Shown here in pieces: positions 9,289-20,341 of a stretch of DNA of 20,341 nt. Made by a program: the position numbers and the translations under genes. This DNA is from a virus. The stretch lies in IMG/VR virus record IMGVR_UViG_3300043446_001339, positions 1 to 20,341 of that record; one strand, 5' to 3'. The notes under the pieces are model-generated. The model was not told where the DNA came from, searched no databases, and was given only the letters and a program-made list of their open reading frames with translations. Numbering within the stretch: the first letter of the stretch is position 1; every line of letters starts with the position of its first letter.

Positions 9289-9338
9289 TAAAACCGCCTC
9301 CACTGCCGCAATATAAGCCCGAGGAGGCTCCGTTTTAG
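9201..9338 (+). CDS. Possible overlapping proline-rich microprotein (45 aa)
   Basis: A 45-residue reading frame (MGNSSNEQERPPTVWPFKYW, then NGIPVESEIV and a Pro-rich end PPPLPQYKPEEAPF). It overlaps the DUF3310 gene by 88 bases in another frame and then continues 50 bases past it. Only AGG about 11 bases upstream supports the start. The protein has protein-like composition and fills otherwise empty sequence up to the convergent lysozyme gene, overlapping it by 4 bases. Plausible but not certain. Confidence 0.45.
   Translation: MGNSSNEQERPPTVWPFKYWNGIPVESEIVKPPPLPQYKPEEAPF
9290..9336. terminator. Candidate bidirectional terminator at convergent ends
   Basis: AAAA (9290-9293) precedes GCCTCC (9296-9301); GGAGGC (9323-9328) is its exact inverted copy; GTTTT (9332-9336) follows. 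Read from either strand this is a GC-rich stem followed by a short T run, at the point where the early and late transcripts meet. The loop is 21 bases, long for an intrinsic terminator, so strength is uncertain. Confidence 0.4.
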
Positions 9339-9844
9339 TCCTGACTAAGGAATAGGGCTTTCTCTGCCTCTCTGCGTCTCAGAAGCCCTTTTAAGACCTT
9401 TCCCCCGGCCTTTGACCAATCAAGGAATCCTTCTGCGGCTCCTTCCCAATCTTGTCGCAGAATCTTTTGCCGAATTCCGCTTCTTTGGAAGTTTCCCAGG
9501 CCAATGTTGTACGACAGGCAAACACAAGCGTCAAACTTTGCTTGACGGCCATCGAGAGTGGGAGCAAGACGAAGAACACCGCGCTCAAAAGATATGAGGT
9601 CATCCTTGAATAGAGCCTCCAGTTCTGACTTGGGCCAGATACGGTTATCTTGCGGTTTGAGTGGATATTCATCTCTGATCATCCCTTGGTAATTGCCAAC
9701 CCTTGCATTTGGTAGACGAAGCTGATCTGCGTATATAGCATGGCCATATCCCACCGTCCAAATCCTTGCACTGCACTGGTAGGGCTTGTCCCTGTAGCCT
9801 TCAAAAGTGTGCATCAAGTTGATGCCTTTTTCAGATGTTCTCAT
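9335..9844 (-). CDS. GH24 endolysin (T4/P22-type lysozyme)
   Basis: A 169-residue muramidase that would cut the peptidoglycan glycan chain at lysis. The catalytic triad has the spacing E-8-C/D-5-T: Glu in TFEGYRDKPY, Cys in YQCSA and Thr in IWTVGYGH. Cys replaces the Asp of T4 lysozyme, as in several GH24 endolysins. Downstream family blocks are FDACVCLSYNIGLGNF and LLRRREAEKALF. Start ATG 9844 overlaps the preceding stop as ATGA; the longer frame from 9895 is not needed. No signal peptide or SAR segment is seen at the N-terminus (MRTSEKGINLMH), so export depends on a hole-forming holin. Confidence 0.93.
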   Translation of the reverse strand: MRTSEKGINLMHTFEGYRDKPYQCSARIWTVGYGHAIYADQLRLPNARVGNYQGMIRDEYPLKPQDNRIWPKSELEALFKDDLISFERGVLRLAPTLDGRQAKFDACVCLSYNIGLGNFQRSGIRQKILRQDWEGAAEGFLDWSKAGGKVLKGLLRRREAEKALFLSQD

Positions 9845-9921
9845 ATGCCGTACAACGCTCCGAGGAAGTAGCAAACACAGCCGAATGCAATCCAAGCCAA
9901 CGTGTCAAATTCTTCTTTCAT
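9841..9921 (-). CDS. 26-residue membrane microprotein in lysis cassette
   Basis: A 26-residue frame with a short charged start (MKEEFDTL) and one hydrophobic segment (AWIAFGCVCYFLGALYGI). It fits exactly between the three-TM holin and the endolysin, with ATGA overlaps on both sides (start 9919-9921 with the holin stop, stop 9841-9843 with the endolysin start). Such exact packing argues that it is translated. GGA lies about seven bases upstream. It may tune holin timing or act as a link peptide for coupled translation; neither is shown. Confidence 0.6.
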   Translation of the reverse strand: MKEEFDTLAWIAFGCVCYFLGALYGI

Positions 9922-10421
9922 TTTTTGTTCCAGTTGCGTGAACCAAACCAAAAACCAATGATGCCACCAAGCATAGACATTTCGTCGGGACTGAAGATGA
10001 TCTCGGAGTACTTGATCACATCTTCCACGGTAACAATCAAGCCTGGGTGAGCAAACATGAAGTAGGTCAACCAAAGATTGATGGCAATCAACTCAAGGAC
10101 AAACAAGTAGGTGATGGTGGGGCGAACCGTTGCCACGTAGGTAGAAGCCCATCCAGCGGCCTTCTCCAGCACCTTGGCATCATGCTCATACGCCGCTTTG
10201 GTCATGTCGGCCTCAGTCTGCATGGCAATCTGGTCAGAACGGATTTCCTCAACCTTGGCCTGGGCGGCAAAACCCATAGCGGCCAGTTCTTTCTCTCGAA
10301 CCGTCTGCATCTCGGCCAAAGCCAGTTCATGCTTCTTGTCAGCCTTGTCTTGAAAGAATTCAAGAAGTTTGGGTAGACCAGAAATCAGAAGGCCACCAAG
10401 GGTTGAGATCAGCGAAAGCAT
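9918..10421 (-). CDS. Phage holin, GTA-holin 3-TM-like
   Basis: A 167-residue protein. N-terminal hydrophobic helix MLSLISTLGGLLISGLPKLL, then a long charged coiled-coil (about 25-90), then a strong hydrophobic segment TVRPTITYLFVLELIAINLW near residues 98-122. A third weaker segment is at the end (MLGGIIGFWFGSRNWNKK). The end with GGIIGFWFGSR and the T-V-R-P-T before the main TM are typical of the GTA-holin family (memory-based). GGAG lies five bases before ATG 10421. It likely forms the membrane hole that lets the signal-less endolysin out. Confidence 0.82.
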   Translation of the reverse strand: MLSLISTLGGLLISGLPKLLEFFQDKADKKHELALAEMQTVREKELAAMGFAAQAKVEEIRSDQIAMQTEADMTKAAYEHDAKVLEKAAGWASTYVATVRPTITYLFVLELIAINLWLTYFMFAHPGLIVTVEDVIKYSEIIFSPDEMSMLGGIIGFWFGSRNWNKK

Positions 10422-10452
10422 GGGTTCTCCAGTTCAAACAAAGTTAATAAAG

Positions 10453-10626
10453 TTACTGTGGTTTATCGTTGCCCGATAACTTTGACTTTTCAACTTCTTT
10501 TCTTAAGCGATCTACTGCCTGTACTTGTTCCCTTACCTCATGCTTTGCCGTCAGAATCTCCAAATAAATAAAAGACATTAGCGCGATCAACAACAAAATT
10601 ACGACCAGCGAAATGATGTTGATCAA
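10453..10626 (-). CDS. Single-TM coiled-coil protein, i-spanin-like
   Basis: A reading frame open back to ATG 10758 (101 residues). The first 43 residues of that longer form are Ser/Gly-rich, have no ribosome site and overlap the upstream gene by 136 bases, so I prefer TTG 10626, which overlaps that gene's stop as TTGA and follows GGGG. The 57-residue product would be an N-terminal membrane segment (IISLVVILLLIALMSFIYLE) followed by a charged coiled-coil (KHEVREQVQAVDRLRKEVEK). That is the layout of an inner-membrane spanin subunit, and the lysis-cassette position agrees. No lipobox partner (o-spanin) was found. If ATG 10758 is used, the topology is still one TM. Confidence 0.6.
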   Translation of the reverse strand: MINIISLVVILLLIALMSFIYLEILTAKHEVREQVQAVDRLRKEVEKSKLSGNDKPQ

Positions 10627-11318
10627 AAACCCCAGCGCATCATCCGATCTTGAGTTAGAAGATGCCAGATCATTCCCAGATACGCCAGAACGACCATACC
10701 CGCCAACACTATTAGCAGACGATCTACCAGCATTTCCTTGGTTCGATTTCGTTGCCATTTGATTTCGCGGTCTTTCTTGACTTTCTGCATCCGGGCGAAC
10801 TCTTGTTCCTCGGAAATAACACCTACCATCCTGATGACCTTTGTGTAAAGGTCGCCCATTCCTGGTGTCTGATAGACCATGATTTGCCGTATCTCATACT
10901 GCAACTTGTCCATCTCATCCAAGGCTAAAACTCTATGCAATGCGGACTCCATTACGTTTTGATCCGGGTCATATACATTTTGGGACTTTGCTTCTTCTTC
11001 TGCAATGTGCGCCTTAAGTTGCTCAAGTGCCTTGAAAAACTTTACAAGGTTGTCGGAGATGTCTTTTCTAACCTGCGCCTCATCAAAAACAACTTGTTTA
11101 CGCCCTTTTTGCACAACAGGTTCGTCATCGACATGAACCTCAACCTTGCGCTTGAAAAACCCCAGGAAACCACCAACCTCCCTGACGATCTTTTTCGCTT
11201 CACCAATAGTTTTTTGTGCCTCAACAACCTCACCTTTGAACTGGTTGTAAAGCTCGCAACCTTGCTTGATCGCGGAAACAGCACCCCGCGCAATGGCGAG
11301 AATGGTGAATGGGTCAAT
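10623..11318 (-). CDS. Lysis-region membrane protein with apparent ATT start (231 aa)
   Basis: The first ordinary start is GTG 11114 (163 residues), which has no ribosome site. The frame stays open and protein-like for 68 more residues up to ATT 11318 (DPFTILAIARGAVSAIKQGC onward). That ATT has AAGAGG five bases upstream and overlaps the previous stop as ATTGA, just like the ATGA junctions elsewhere. No ATG, GTG or TTG exists between 11327 and 11114. The protein has an N-terminal helix, a basic/acidic linker, a long charged helical region and a C-terminal TM (LLIVLAGMVVLAYLGMIWHL). It resembles, from memory, a phage protein family beginning I/M-D-P-F-T with one C-terminal TM. Function unknown; possibly lysis or virion-membrane related. 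Confidence 0.75.
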   Translation of the reverse strand: MDPFTILAIARGAVSAIKQGCELYNQFKGEVVEAQKTIGEAKKIVREVGGFLGFFKRKVEVHVDDEPVVQKGRKQVVFDEAQVRKDISDNLVKFFKALEQLKAHIAEEEAKSQNVYDPDQNVMESALHRVLALDEMDKLQYEIRQIMVYQTPGMGDLYTKVIRMVGVISEEQEFARMQKVKKDREIKWQRNRTKEMLVDRLLIVLAGMVVLAYLGMIWHLLTQDRMMRWGF

Positions 11319-11541
11319 GTTTGCCTCTTACCGAAGCCCACCACACGCCAACCACCGTGATAGCCCCGCCAATCCATAGCAAAGGCTTTGCGGCAGTGGC
11401 AATCCATCCTAAGACAGTAAATGCCCCCTGGACGGCCTTAAACGCCCCTACAAGCTCTCTTGTGTTGTCATCAATGGCATCGACTTTATGCTCGACTGCA
11501 ATCAGTCTGTCGTAGATGTCTTGGTGGCTCACCTGATCCAT
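11314..11541 (-). CDS. XhlA-like membrane protein, possible holin accessory
   Basis: A 75-residue protein. An N-terminal amphipathic coiled-coil (YDRLIAVEHKVDAIDDNTRE, then LVGAFKAVQG) is followed by a C-terminal hydrophobic part that could hold one or two short TMs (FTVLGWIATAAKPLLWIGGA, then ITVVGVWWASV). This matches the hemolysin XhlA/holin-accessory layout. GAGG lies five bases before ATG 11541, formed by the end of the preceding virion gene. It is the first gene of the lysis group and is coupled to the ATT-start gene. Confidence 0.75.
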   Translation of the reverse strand: MDQVSHQDIYDRLIAVEHKVDAIDDNTRELVGAFKAVQGAFTVLGWIATAAKPLLWIGGAITVVGVWWASVRGKH

Positions 11542-18822: not shown

Positions 18823-19361
18823 TATTCGCCTTTGGGCCAGTTTTGAGCCATAACCACGTCAATCAATGCAGGGACATCGGCACAGGCATTGATGTCGGTT
18901 TCCAAACGGTTTGCTTCTGCAACAACTGCGGCGCGAAAAACAGAAACAGCCTCTGGCACGGAAACATCACGCTCCATCTTGCGGATGATCATCCAATCGG
19001 TTTGAGCCAACATCTTGCCAGCAGTGTCTTTGACCTGTGCAATCCATTGAGACTTCAACCCTTTGGTGACCAAACGCTTGTCTGAATCCACCATTGCAGG
19101 TTGACCATTGACCTCACCCAAGACCTTCTCATATAAGGGATTGCCTTGCTCGTCAACTTCCTCACGGTCATCCAGTTGCTTAGGATTGTCTACGCCCCAA
19201 TAAAACCGATCATCGTACGGCTCAGGGTCTGGCACTTCAGTGATACCGATGGCTTGCTTCTCCTCAAGCGTGGTGAGACGAAGCCAGTTGGCGGGGTAGT
19301 GCGTACCATCAACTTCAAAGGGCGTGTCGATGGGGAGCGGTTGTCCGTTGAGCATGAACAT
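18822..19361 (-). CDS. Tail fibre assembly chaperone-like protein 2 (179 aa)
   Basis: A 179-residue protein. N-terminal part MFMLNGQPLPIDTPFEVDGT followed by HYPANWLRLTTLEEKQAIGI is the phage tail-fibre-assembly type. The C-terminal helical module MLAQTDWMIIRKMERDVSVP, then FRAAVVAEANRLETDI and ALIDVVMAQNWPKGE, carries the same A/S-x-T/S-D-W hallmark as the chaperone at 15639. ATG 19361 has a perfect GGAGG six bases upstream. That ribosome site lies inside the 3' end of the HNH gene, indicating the HNH gene was inserted just in front of it. Probably folds the DUF7483-type protein or the large fibre. Confidence 0.82.
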   Translation of the reverse strand: MFMLNGQPLPIDTPFEVDGTHYPANWLRLTTLEEKQAIGITEVPDPEPYDDRFYWGVDNPKQLDDREEVDEQGNPLYEKVLGEVNGQPAMVDSDKRLVTKGLKSQWIAQVKDTAGKMLAQTDWMIIRKMERDVSVPEAVSVFRAAVVAEANRLETDINACADVPALIDVVMAQNWPKGE

Positions 19362-19959
19362 GAGAAACCTCCAAAATCTTTTCTGGTGAAAGGTTGCGTT
19401 TTACTCGGTCTTGGATCGTAGGGTATGGAATTCCAGTCTCTAATGACCAGTCTTTCATGCACATTGTTTTTCCATTGTGAGTAATAAAAACATTTTGCCG
19501 TGTGTTGCGATTCTGTTCGGCAATAGTTGCCCATCGGCAGTTTTCTTTGGAATAGCCTTTAGAGTTGTCAATTCTGTCCAAAGTCATACCATGTGGACGC
19601 TCGCCCATATCACGCACAAAATTTTCAAACAATTCCCAGTCCGCACAAAAACCCAATTCAGCATATCTAATGTTTGATGCTTGATTAAGGTTCGTGCATC
19701 TAGTTTTCATAGCTCGCCAAGATTTGTATGCGCCAGAATGAACTAGACCATGCACAAAATTTTTTGCGCTAGTTGTTTCGGAGCGTAGGCATCCACACGA
19801 TGATGTATGACCAGATCGAACAGATGCACCACTTGTTTCAATCGTGCCTCCGCACTCACAAGAAAACAAATAACGATAGCCGTGTCCATCTTTGCCAGTA
19901 TTTTGCAAAGCGATCAATCTTCCGTATTTGTTGCCGATCATTTGTATTTTTTTAGGCAT
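19315..19959 (-). CDS. HNH homing endonuclease with C-terminal HTH
   Basis: A 214-residue homing-type endonuclease. N-terminal zinc region: CECGGTIETSGASVRSGHTS then SCGC gives two C-x-C/C-G-C pairs. The core AMKTRCTNLN, then RPHGMTLDRIDNSKGYSKEN followed by CRWATIAEQNRN, is the HNH-family pattern (LDRIDN-x5-SxENCRW). The end NGKTMCMKDWSLETGIPYPT, with IQDRVKRNL, looks like a DNA-binding HTH. ATG 19959 shares a base with the stop of the fibre gene (TAATG), while the tail overlaps the chaperone gene by 47 bases. This free-standing insertion between tail genes is typical of homing genes in phages. It is more AT-rich than its flanks. Confidence 0.88.
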   Translation of the reverse strand: MPKKIQMIGNKYGRLIALQNTGKDGHGYRYLFSCECGGTIETSGASVRSGHTSSCGCLRSETTSAKNFVHGLVHSGAYKSWRAMKTRCTNLNQASNIRYAELGFCADWELFENFVRDMGERPHGMTLDRIDNSKGYSKENCRWATIAEQNRNTRQNVFITHNGKTMCMKDWSLETGIPYPTIQDRVKRNLSPEKILEVSHVHAQRTTAPHRHAL

Positions 19960-20341
19960 TAGAACCCCAAACTGTATTTGAATGGTGCAGATGCAAACGC
20001 AGCATATATCCATGTACCAGTGAATGACGAATTCCTCAGCTTGAATCCGTTTGAAAGAATATCCAAGTCGGTAACCGTTGACTCTGCATTGGAAAGGTTT
20101 GGATAAAGTTCTGCGCCAAGAACATTGTATGTATTTCGTGCCGTATCCCACACAATCCAATTGCTTGTTGAATCTGTGCGCTTTAGCAAAACATATCTTG
20201 GCAAGAATCCAGTGTAGACAAATGCGTTGTCAGAGGCTCCGTTAGCGGATACCGAACCAAATGCAGAGTAACCAGCGACTTCTGCGAAGCAGTAGGCGAC
20301 AAACCCAACCGATAAGCCTGTTTGAATTCCAGATGCAAATG
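19959..20341 (-). CDS. DUF7483-type tail protein, partial (C-terminal 127 residues)
   Basis: The gene enters from the right edge; only the last 127 residues are seen, and no start is in the window (ORF-caller starts such as 20204 are internal). The sequence runs ASGIQTGLSVGFVAYCFAEV, AFVYTGFLPRYVLLKRTDST, NWIVWDTARNTYNVLG and ends DILSNGFKLRNSSF with FKYSLGF. This is the pattern of the DUF7483 beta-sandwich found at the end of many phage tail/fibre proteins (family assignment from memory). Likely a virion surface or receptor-interaction domain. Its stop overlaps the HNH start. Confidence 0.8.
   Translation of the reverse strand, partial: FASGIQTGLSVGFVAYCFAEVAGYSAFGSVSANGASDNAFVYTGFLPRYVLLKRTDSTSNWIVWDTARNTYNVLGAELYPNLSNAESTVTDLDILSNGFKLRNSSFTGTWIYAAFASAPFKYSLGF

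Follow-up and report, generated by a model that had tools for sequence, protein, structure and literature searches.

The pinholin S21 and antiholins are membrane helices that act in lysis timing. In T4, the class III holin T and the antiholin RI set lysis timing via membrane helices as well (PMC11413866). Accessory lysis proteins can be small. Gp25 of phage Mu, a releasin (DUF2730), has 99 amino acids (aa), a single transmembrane domain (TMD) with the N-terminus out, and a large cytoplasmic domain, and it releases SAR endolysins (PMC9239132). LysF1b of the cluster F1 mycobacteriophages is a noncanonical lysis protein with a single TMD, predicted N-out/C-in; it works with a separate holin-like protein, and its deletion alters lysis timing (PMC13056207). 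A noncanonical single-TMD protein can thus be a lysis modulator, with LysF1b as the precedent (PMC13056207). Here we describe an ORF of 26 codons from the lysis operon of a phage. Small accessory membrane proteins of lysis are already known; what sets this one apart is that it consists of the helix alone, falls in no family that we tested, and behaves as an optional insert placed to the exact base.

The window, meaning the whole stretch of DNA analyzed, is a virus record of 20,341 bases. It would come from a "freshwater-type" phage, since the nearest annotated phages are from Manatee Spring. Late genes on the minus strand run, 5′ to 3′, from a 75-aa XhlA-like protein through a 163-aa protein, a 101-aa protein, a holin-like protein of 167 aa, and the micro-ORF to a PF00959 lysozyme. 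The first in the cassette is a small XhlA/holin-like membrane protein (11314 to 11541, minus strand) that matches phrog_689 at an E value of 0.54 only. The 163-aa protein (10623 to 11114, minus strand) is membrane anchored and counted from a GTG, and its true start may lie upstream; the 101-aa protein (10453 to 10758, minus strand) has one transmembrane (TM) helix and a coiled-coil-like tail. The 101-aa gene begins within the 163-aa gene, an overlap of 136 bases (10623 to 10758), and this nested layout is seen again in loci L182 to L185, L175, and L308. In L308 (MW202484, 4010 to 6257), the XhlA-like, 163-aa-like, and 101-aa-like module is joined to another holin and to a gene whose annotation is chitinase A; the downstream lysis module appears to have been swapped there en bloc. 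In L182 to L185 and L175/L179, the 101-aa homologue overlaps a lipoprotein gene as a spanin-like pair. The window (10421 to 10453) and L001 lack that lipoprotein gene, which leaves the window cassette without an obvious o-spanin partner. Beside structural genes, a minus-strand ORF at 19315 to 20160 resembles an HNH-type homing endonuclease by eye.

The 167-aa holin-like protein (P0002; 9918 to 10421, minus strand) matches phrog_6637, and its homologues reach phrog_3427 ("holin") and PF11351 (GTA_holin_3TM). P0002 itself scores 10.8 bits against GTA_holin_3TM, below the 24.8-bit cutoff. All 19 of the aligned relatives match phrog_6637, three match phrog_3427 (best, 7.8e-7), and one matches GTA_holin_3TM at 7.8e-4; an AlphaFold model of the protein is all helical, at low confidence (pLDDT 69). 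Judged by these matches, the evidence for the label "holin" appears weak but consistent. The lysozyme endolysin (169 aa; 9335 to 9844, minus strand) matches PF00959 and phrog_7, and its N-terminus, MRTSEKGINLMHTFEGY, has no TM segment, that is, no hydrophobic stretch of the SAR type. The initial annotation had placed a 26-residue ORF between these genes, with ATGA at both ends, and we found this to be exact on the minus strand: 26 codons encoding MKEEFDTLAWIAFGCVCYFLGALYGI and ending in a stop (9841 to 9921). The holin-like stop and the micro-ORF start share the ATGA at 9918 to 9921 (holin-like TGA at 9918 to 9920), and the lysozyme start shares the ATGA at 9841 to 9844, with the micro-ORF TGA inside. 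A weak Shine-Dalgarno (SD)-like GGAA (9928 to 9931; duplex, −3.3 kcal/mol) lies upstream of the micro-ORF start. The single TM segment that had been proposed is also borne out; there is one hydrophobic stretch, with one helix predicted at residues ~8 to 26 and a best 19-residue Kyte-Doolittle mean of 1.89 starting at residue 8.

That mean is reached by 2.2% of the stop-free 26-codon stretches in the window, and 0.5% of base shuffles give an open frame that is equally hydrophobic; by themselves, these two properties are therefore weak evidence. What raises the micro-ORF above chance, as we read the alignments, is conservation. A longer frame from TTG 10074 (77 aa) was rejected because its upstream extension is not conserved, which also indicates that the ATGA start is the real one. 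We rejected, too, an N-terminal extension of the lysozyme through this region, since that frame changes freely, and a lipoprotein reading of the micro-ORF cysteine, which has no lipobox.

No match to the micro-ORF was found in Pfam and PHROG, with the E-value limit set at 10 for L001 and L004 and at 1 for the window. Holins, which trigger permeabilization of the membrane and release of the endolysin, have one to three TM helices and are encoded in lysis cassettes, and the product agrees with this in being one hydrophobic helix found in two cassettes; it has no holin-family sequence match. T and RI of T4 and S21 are far larger, with soluble domains or two TMDs, and no sequence similarity to them was found. 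Gp25 is alike as a small, N-out, single-TMD accessory lysis protein (the micro-ORF topology being predicted). It differs in its DUF2730 sequence, its acidic cytoplasmic domain, and its SAR endolysin partner, whereas the micro-ORF product has 26 aa with nothing beyond the helix and no Pfam match, and its lysozyme is of the non-SAR type. An o-spanin would have a signal sequence with a lipobox and a periplasmic tail; no tail follows the cysteine here, and the lipoprotein of the second cassette described below is a separate gene. LysF1b resembles the product in its single TMD, its lysis cassette, and its separate holin-like protein, a likeness by description, not sequence; unlike the micro-ORF product, it belongs to a mycobacterial host and has not been described as a helix of 26 residues and nothing else.

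Equivalents in related cassettes, which the initial annotation had suggested seeking, do exist. Carriers form four lineages, namely, the window, L001 to L003, L004, and L175/L179, with peptides of 26, 26, 23, and 24 aa, respectively. L001 to L003, all IMG/VR contigs, have holins 89 to 90% and lysozymes 92 to 93% identical to those of the window and carry MSDEFDTLAWIAFGCVCYFLGALYGL at the same site. L004 (holin, 85%; lysozyme, 90% identity) was located via a holin search, independently of any micro-ORF pattern. Its order is holin, ATGA, a GIY-YIG endonuclease (193 aa; PF01541, phrog_7168), ATGA, MSNTSTWIFIAFVCYFLGALNGL, TGAACTATG, and lysozyme. The 3′ overlap is thus lost (TGAACTATG), yet the C-terminus VCYFLGALNGL is kept, which suggests that the peptide, not the overlap, sets the end. 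The idea that the overlaps fix the length to the base fails on the same ground, and the lengths vary among relatives. L175/L179, on 35-kb contigs, carry MIYETLAWLVFGATCYFLGALFGL; they were found by the pattern CYFLGALxG, and their C-terminal identity is partly ascertainment, with TLAW and FG outside the pattern. Eleven residues are invariant in all four sequences: M1, T7, W10, C17 to L23, and G25, including CYFLGAL-x-G. Matches to the pattern AWIAFGC beyond L001 to L003 were set aside as chance, among them an 83-aa TM/coiled-coil protein in L082/L085 with no lysis cassette visible around it. The relaxed pattern FLGALxG-stop matched 48 stretches and added no lineage, tblastn against annotated phages gave no micro-ORF match, and the genome collection gave six weak holin matches in MAGs, with no micro-ORF.

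The conservation is that of a peptide. The window and L001 differ at 11 bases, 9 of them at third positions; 7 codons, inside the helix, are synonymous, and the 3 replaced codons (2, 3, and 26) are at the ends. In a neutral simulation of this pair, so few replacements arose in 0.12% of runs (P ~0.001), and the 11 differences would replace 7 to 9 codons if translated in either of the other two frames. Retention of VCYFLGALxGL in L004 has a P of ~0.004; these tests are pairwise and share sequences, of which only four are distinct. The check for purifying selection that had been proposed thus came out positive. Frameshifts or stops in relatives with intact neighbors had been named as evidence against a gene; all carriers keep an intact frame, and most relatives are cleanly without the micro-ORF. 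From these comparisons we conclude that the micro-ORF is very probably a real, selected microprotein gene.

The second cassette gives the peptide a different setting. In L175/L179, the order is XhlA-like protein, 163-aa and 101-aa homologues (31 to 36% identity), a 60-aa lipoprotein, and the micro-ORF, which shares an ATGA with each neighbor, followed by a 98-aa TM protein, a 136-aa 3TM holin, and a Peptidase_M15_3 endolysin. The L179 3TM holin matches PF11351 above the Pfam cutoff and phrog_3427 at 1e-21. Across 80 loci around the 98-aa gene, the micro-ORF was present only in L228/L229, which are the L175/L179 contigs; in the next relatives (L230 to L233, 83%), which have no micro-ORF, the lipoprotein gene is one base from the 98-aa gene. 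The micro-ORF therefore occurs with two nonhomologous endolysins (PF00959 lysozyme and Peptidase_M15), each time with a 3TM-holin-type protein, and its place relative to holin and endolysin is not the same in both. A separate 38-aa ORF, MLETLFWILVGAFIGWNFPQPQYAKDIQTKIKSLFVKE, lies ~0.9 kb upstream of the 98-aa homologue in L295 (2009 to 2125) and L306 and weakly matches phrog_20849 (E, 0.023). The sporadic presence, small single-TM product, and varying operon position would suit a moron-type membrane gene with a nonlysis function, such as superinfection exclusion or action on a host membrane target, that is parked in the late operon. We regard this as distinctly unlikely, since both independent placements are inside lysis cassettes and none was found elsewhere in the records searched.

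We then considered translation. Coupling through ATGA is established (PMC6728339), and a minigene can enhance translation of the gene behind it (PMC8708949). The axe-txe minigene mg2, like the micro-ORF, is a very short ORF directly upstream of a coupled gene; it is two codons long, and the peptide it encodes does not matter (PMC8708949). Passage through the micro-ORF might likewise set endolysin output by two-step termination-reinitiation, with the peptide itself inert. In the window and L001, the micro-ORF is bounded by ATGA on either side, and the SD arrangement agrees with such a relay. In relatives with a direct seam, the SD-like bases of the lysozyme sit in the holin tail (median, −4.7 kcal/mol; 106 junctions). 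In carriers this holin-tail SD now precedes the micro-ORF, and the lysozyme is left with weak or badly spaced SD-like bases, in the window a GGAG 13 bases from the ATG. With the SD moved away from its start, the carrier endolysin probably depends on termination-reinitiation for expression. The duplexes before the micro-ORF start are −5.9 kcal/mol in both L001 and L004 and −10.3 kcal/mol in L179 (GGGAGG, the strongest among carriers), and that of the window is the weakest. The micro-ORF peptide, however, is conserved, unlike that of mg2. A spacer or relay minigene would leave its peptide unconstrained, whereas amino acids are held here amid synonymous divergence (7 synonymous versus 3 replaced codons). 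In addition, the same peptide precedes an unrelated gene, that of the 98-aa TM protein, L004 kept it after losing the 3′ overlap, and in most relatives the holin gene is coupled to the lysozyme gene with nothing in between. A gene that "only carries ribosomes to the endolysin start," one of the roles first suggested, is thus disfavored, and we hold a pure relay to be highly improbable. Coupling to the lysozyme start is most likely a by-product of insertion; it explains neither the peptide conservation nor the second cassette.

Holin and lysozyme overlap directly (−4) in 106 of 123 distinct junctions. The nearest insert-free relatives, L005/L006 (holin, 83%; 163-aa and 101-aa homologues present), lack the micro-ORF at the seam and throughout their 50- to 60-kb records. 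By gene order, the micro-ORF appears to be an optional seam insert, cleanly absent from most relatives in both cassettes, where the neighbors then touch. Any role would be conditional, since the micro-ORF is missing from the majority of cassettes that pair this holin with this lysozyme. Other inserts use the same seam. An unrelated 35-aa TM ORF (MMEFAALFAEYPVATSLILAAAANYLIITFAGMFE) lies there in L038 (2350 to 2457), L040, L041, L047, and L050; its lysozyme flank equals that of the insert-free L039 over the compared stretch, and the last ~50 bp of the holin are replaced (co-converted). Endonuclease-sized ORFs, several of the GIY-YIG type, occupy the seam at nine distinct junctions (L004, 3504 to 4085; L018, L035, L104, L120, L129, and L154; L136 and L150), free-standing and often regenerating RTGA overlaps. 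The holin-lysozyme seam thus looks to be a general landing site. Several of the seam endonucleases share a C-terminal CPxC..GGGGNMxRYHFxxC motif. In L039 (from ~3505) and L042, a hydrophobic out-of-frame ORF (MKEFVLALIVVLLFCGLLGLVTLLTLRILESN) lies within the lysozyme start, probably a frame coincidence.

These inserts raise the idea that the micro-ORF is a passenger of homing endonucleases: a GIY-YIG enzyme would cut the seam, and small inserts would persist by breaking its target (immunity) or would have come with it. The nine junctions, the order holin/GIY-YIG/micro-ORF/lysozyme in L004, and the co-conversion next to the 35-aa ORF all point this way. Left unexplained are the conservation of the peptide and the L175/L179 context, where no endonuclease is seen, and both inserted micro-ORFs encode TM helices, which also speaks against a mere passenger. 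We give this origin very little credence as an account of the gene.

A lysis role for the product is likely. In particular, we lean slightly toward an optional single-pass accessory (23 to 26 aa) that would modulate the membrane step of lysis in one phage group. The micro-ORF would be cotranslated with its neighbors, and the peptide would insert as one helix, probably N-out, an orientation favored by an acidic or uncharged N-terminus with almost no basic residues. Small-xxx-small patterns are typical of packed TM helices. In the peptide, C17, G21, and G25 fall on every fourth residue along one helix face (C-x3-G-x3-G), and this face may pack on itself or on the TM helix of a lysis protein. Candidate partners are the holin-like protein or 3TM holin, or a spanin-like protein encoded in the upstream module that carriers have in common. 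Because that module and a 3TM-type holin are present in the carriers, whose endolysins differ, the partner would most likely be the holin or an upstream membrane protein, not the endolysin. Such packing would tune the timing or efficiency of membrane opening, and a ribosome terminating at the ATGA would then be able to reinitiate on the gene that follows, so that insertion spares the endolysin.

The initial annotation had also suggested a holin regulator or a pinhole component, and whether the helix would modulate rather than form a pore we put at even chances. As a pore former, it would be a minimal pinholin or holin, or a helix like a type I toxin, that oligomerizes, depolarizes the membrane, and boosts lysis; its size, hydrophobicity, C-x3-G-x3-G repeat of small residues, and lysis-operon location all fit. 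But a 3TM-holin-type protein is already present in each cassette, most relatives manage without such a peptide, and the lysozyme has no SAR-type N-terminal segment for a pinholin to serve, so we think a pore unlikely. A bolder form of the modulator reading, which we offer tentatively and at less than even chances, is that of a new family of 23- to 26-residue membrane microproteins moving base-exactly between overlapped lysis genes and modulating the adjacent 3TM-type holin. If true, both micro-genes of this kind and homing endonucleases would regularly land in the gene seams of phage lysis operons.

Comparison with relatives is by itself enough to recognize a 26-codon phage lysis ORF as a selected gene; ORFs of this size are discarded by gene callers and are too short for ordinary annotation. 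Relatives with and without the micro-ORF offer a precise comparison for testing modulators added at seams. The finding suggests that optional single-helix modulators have been inserted into lysis cassettes where two genes meet. This would matter for when lysis occurs and for how small a lysis protein can be and still function.
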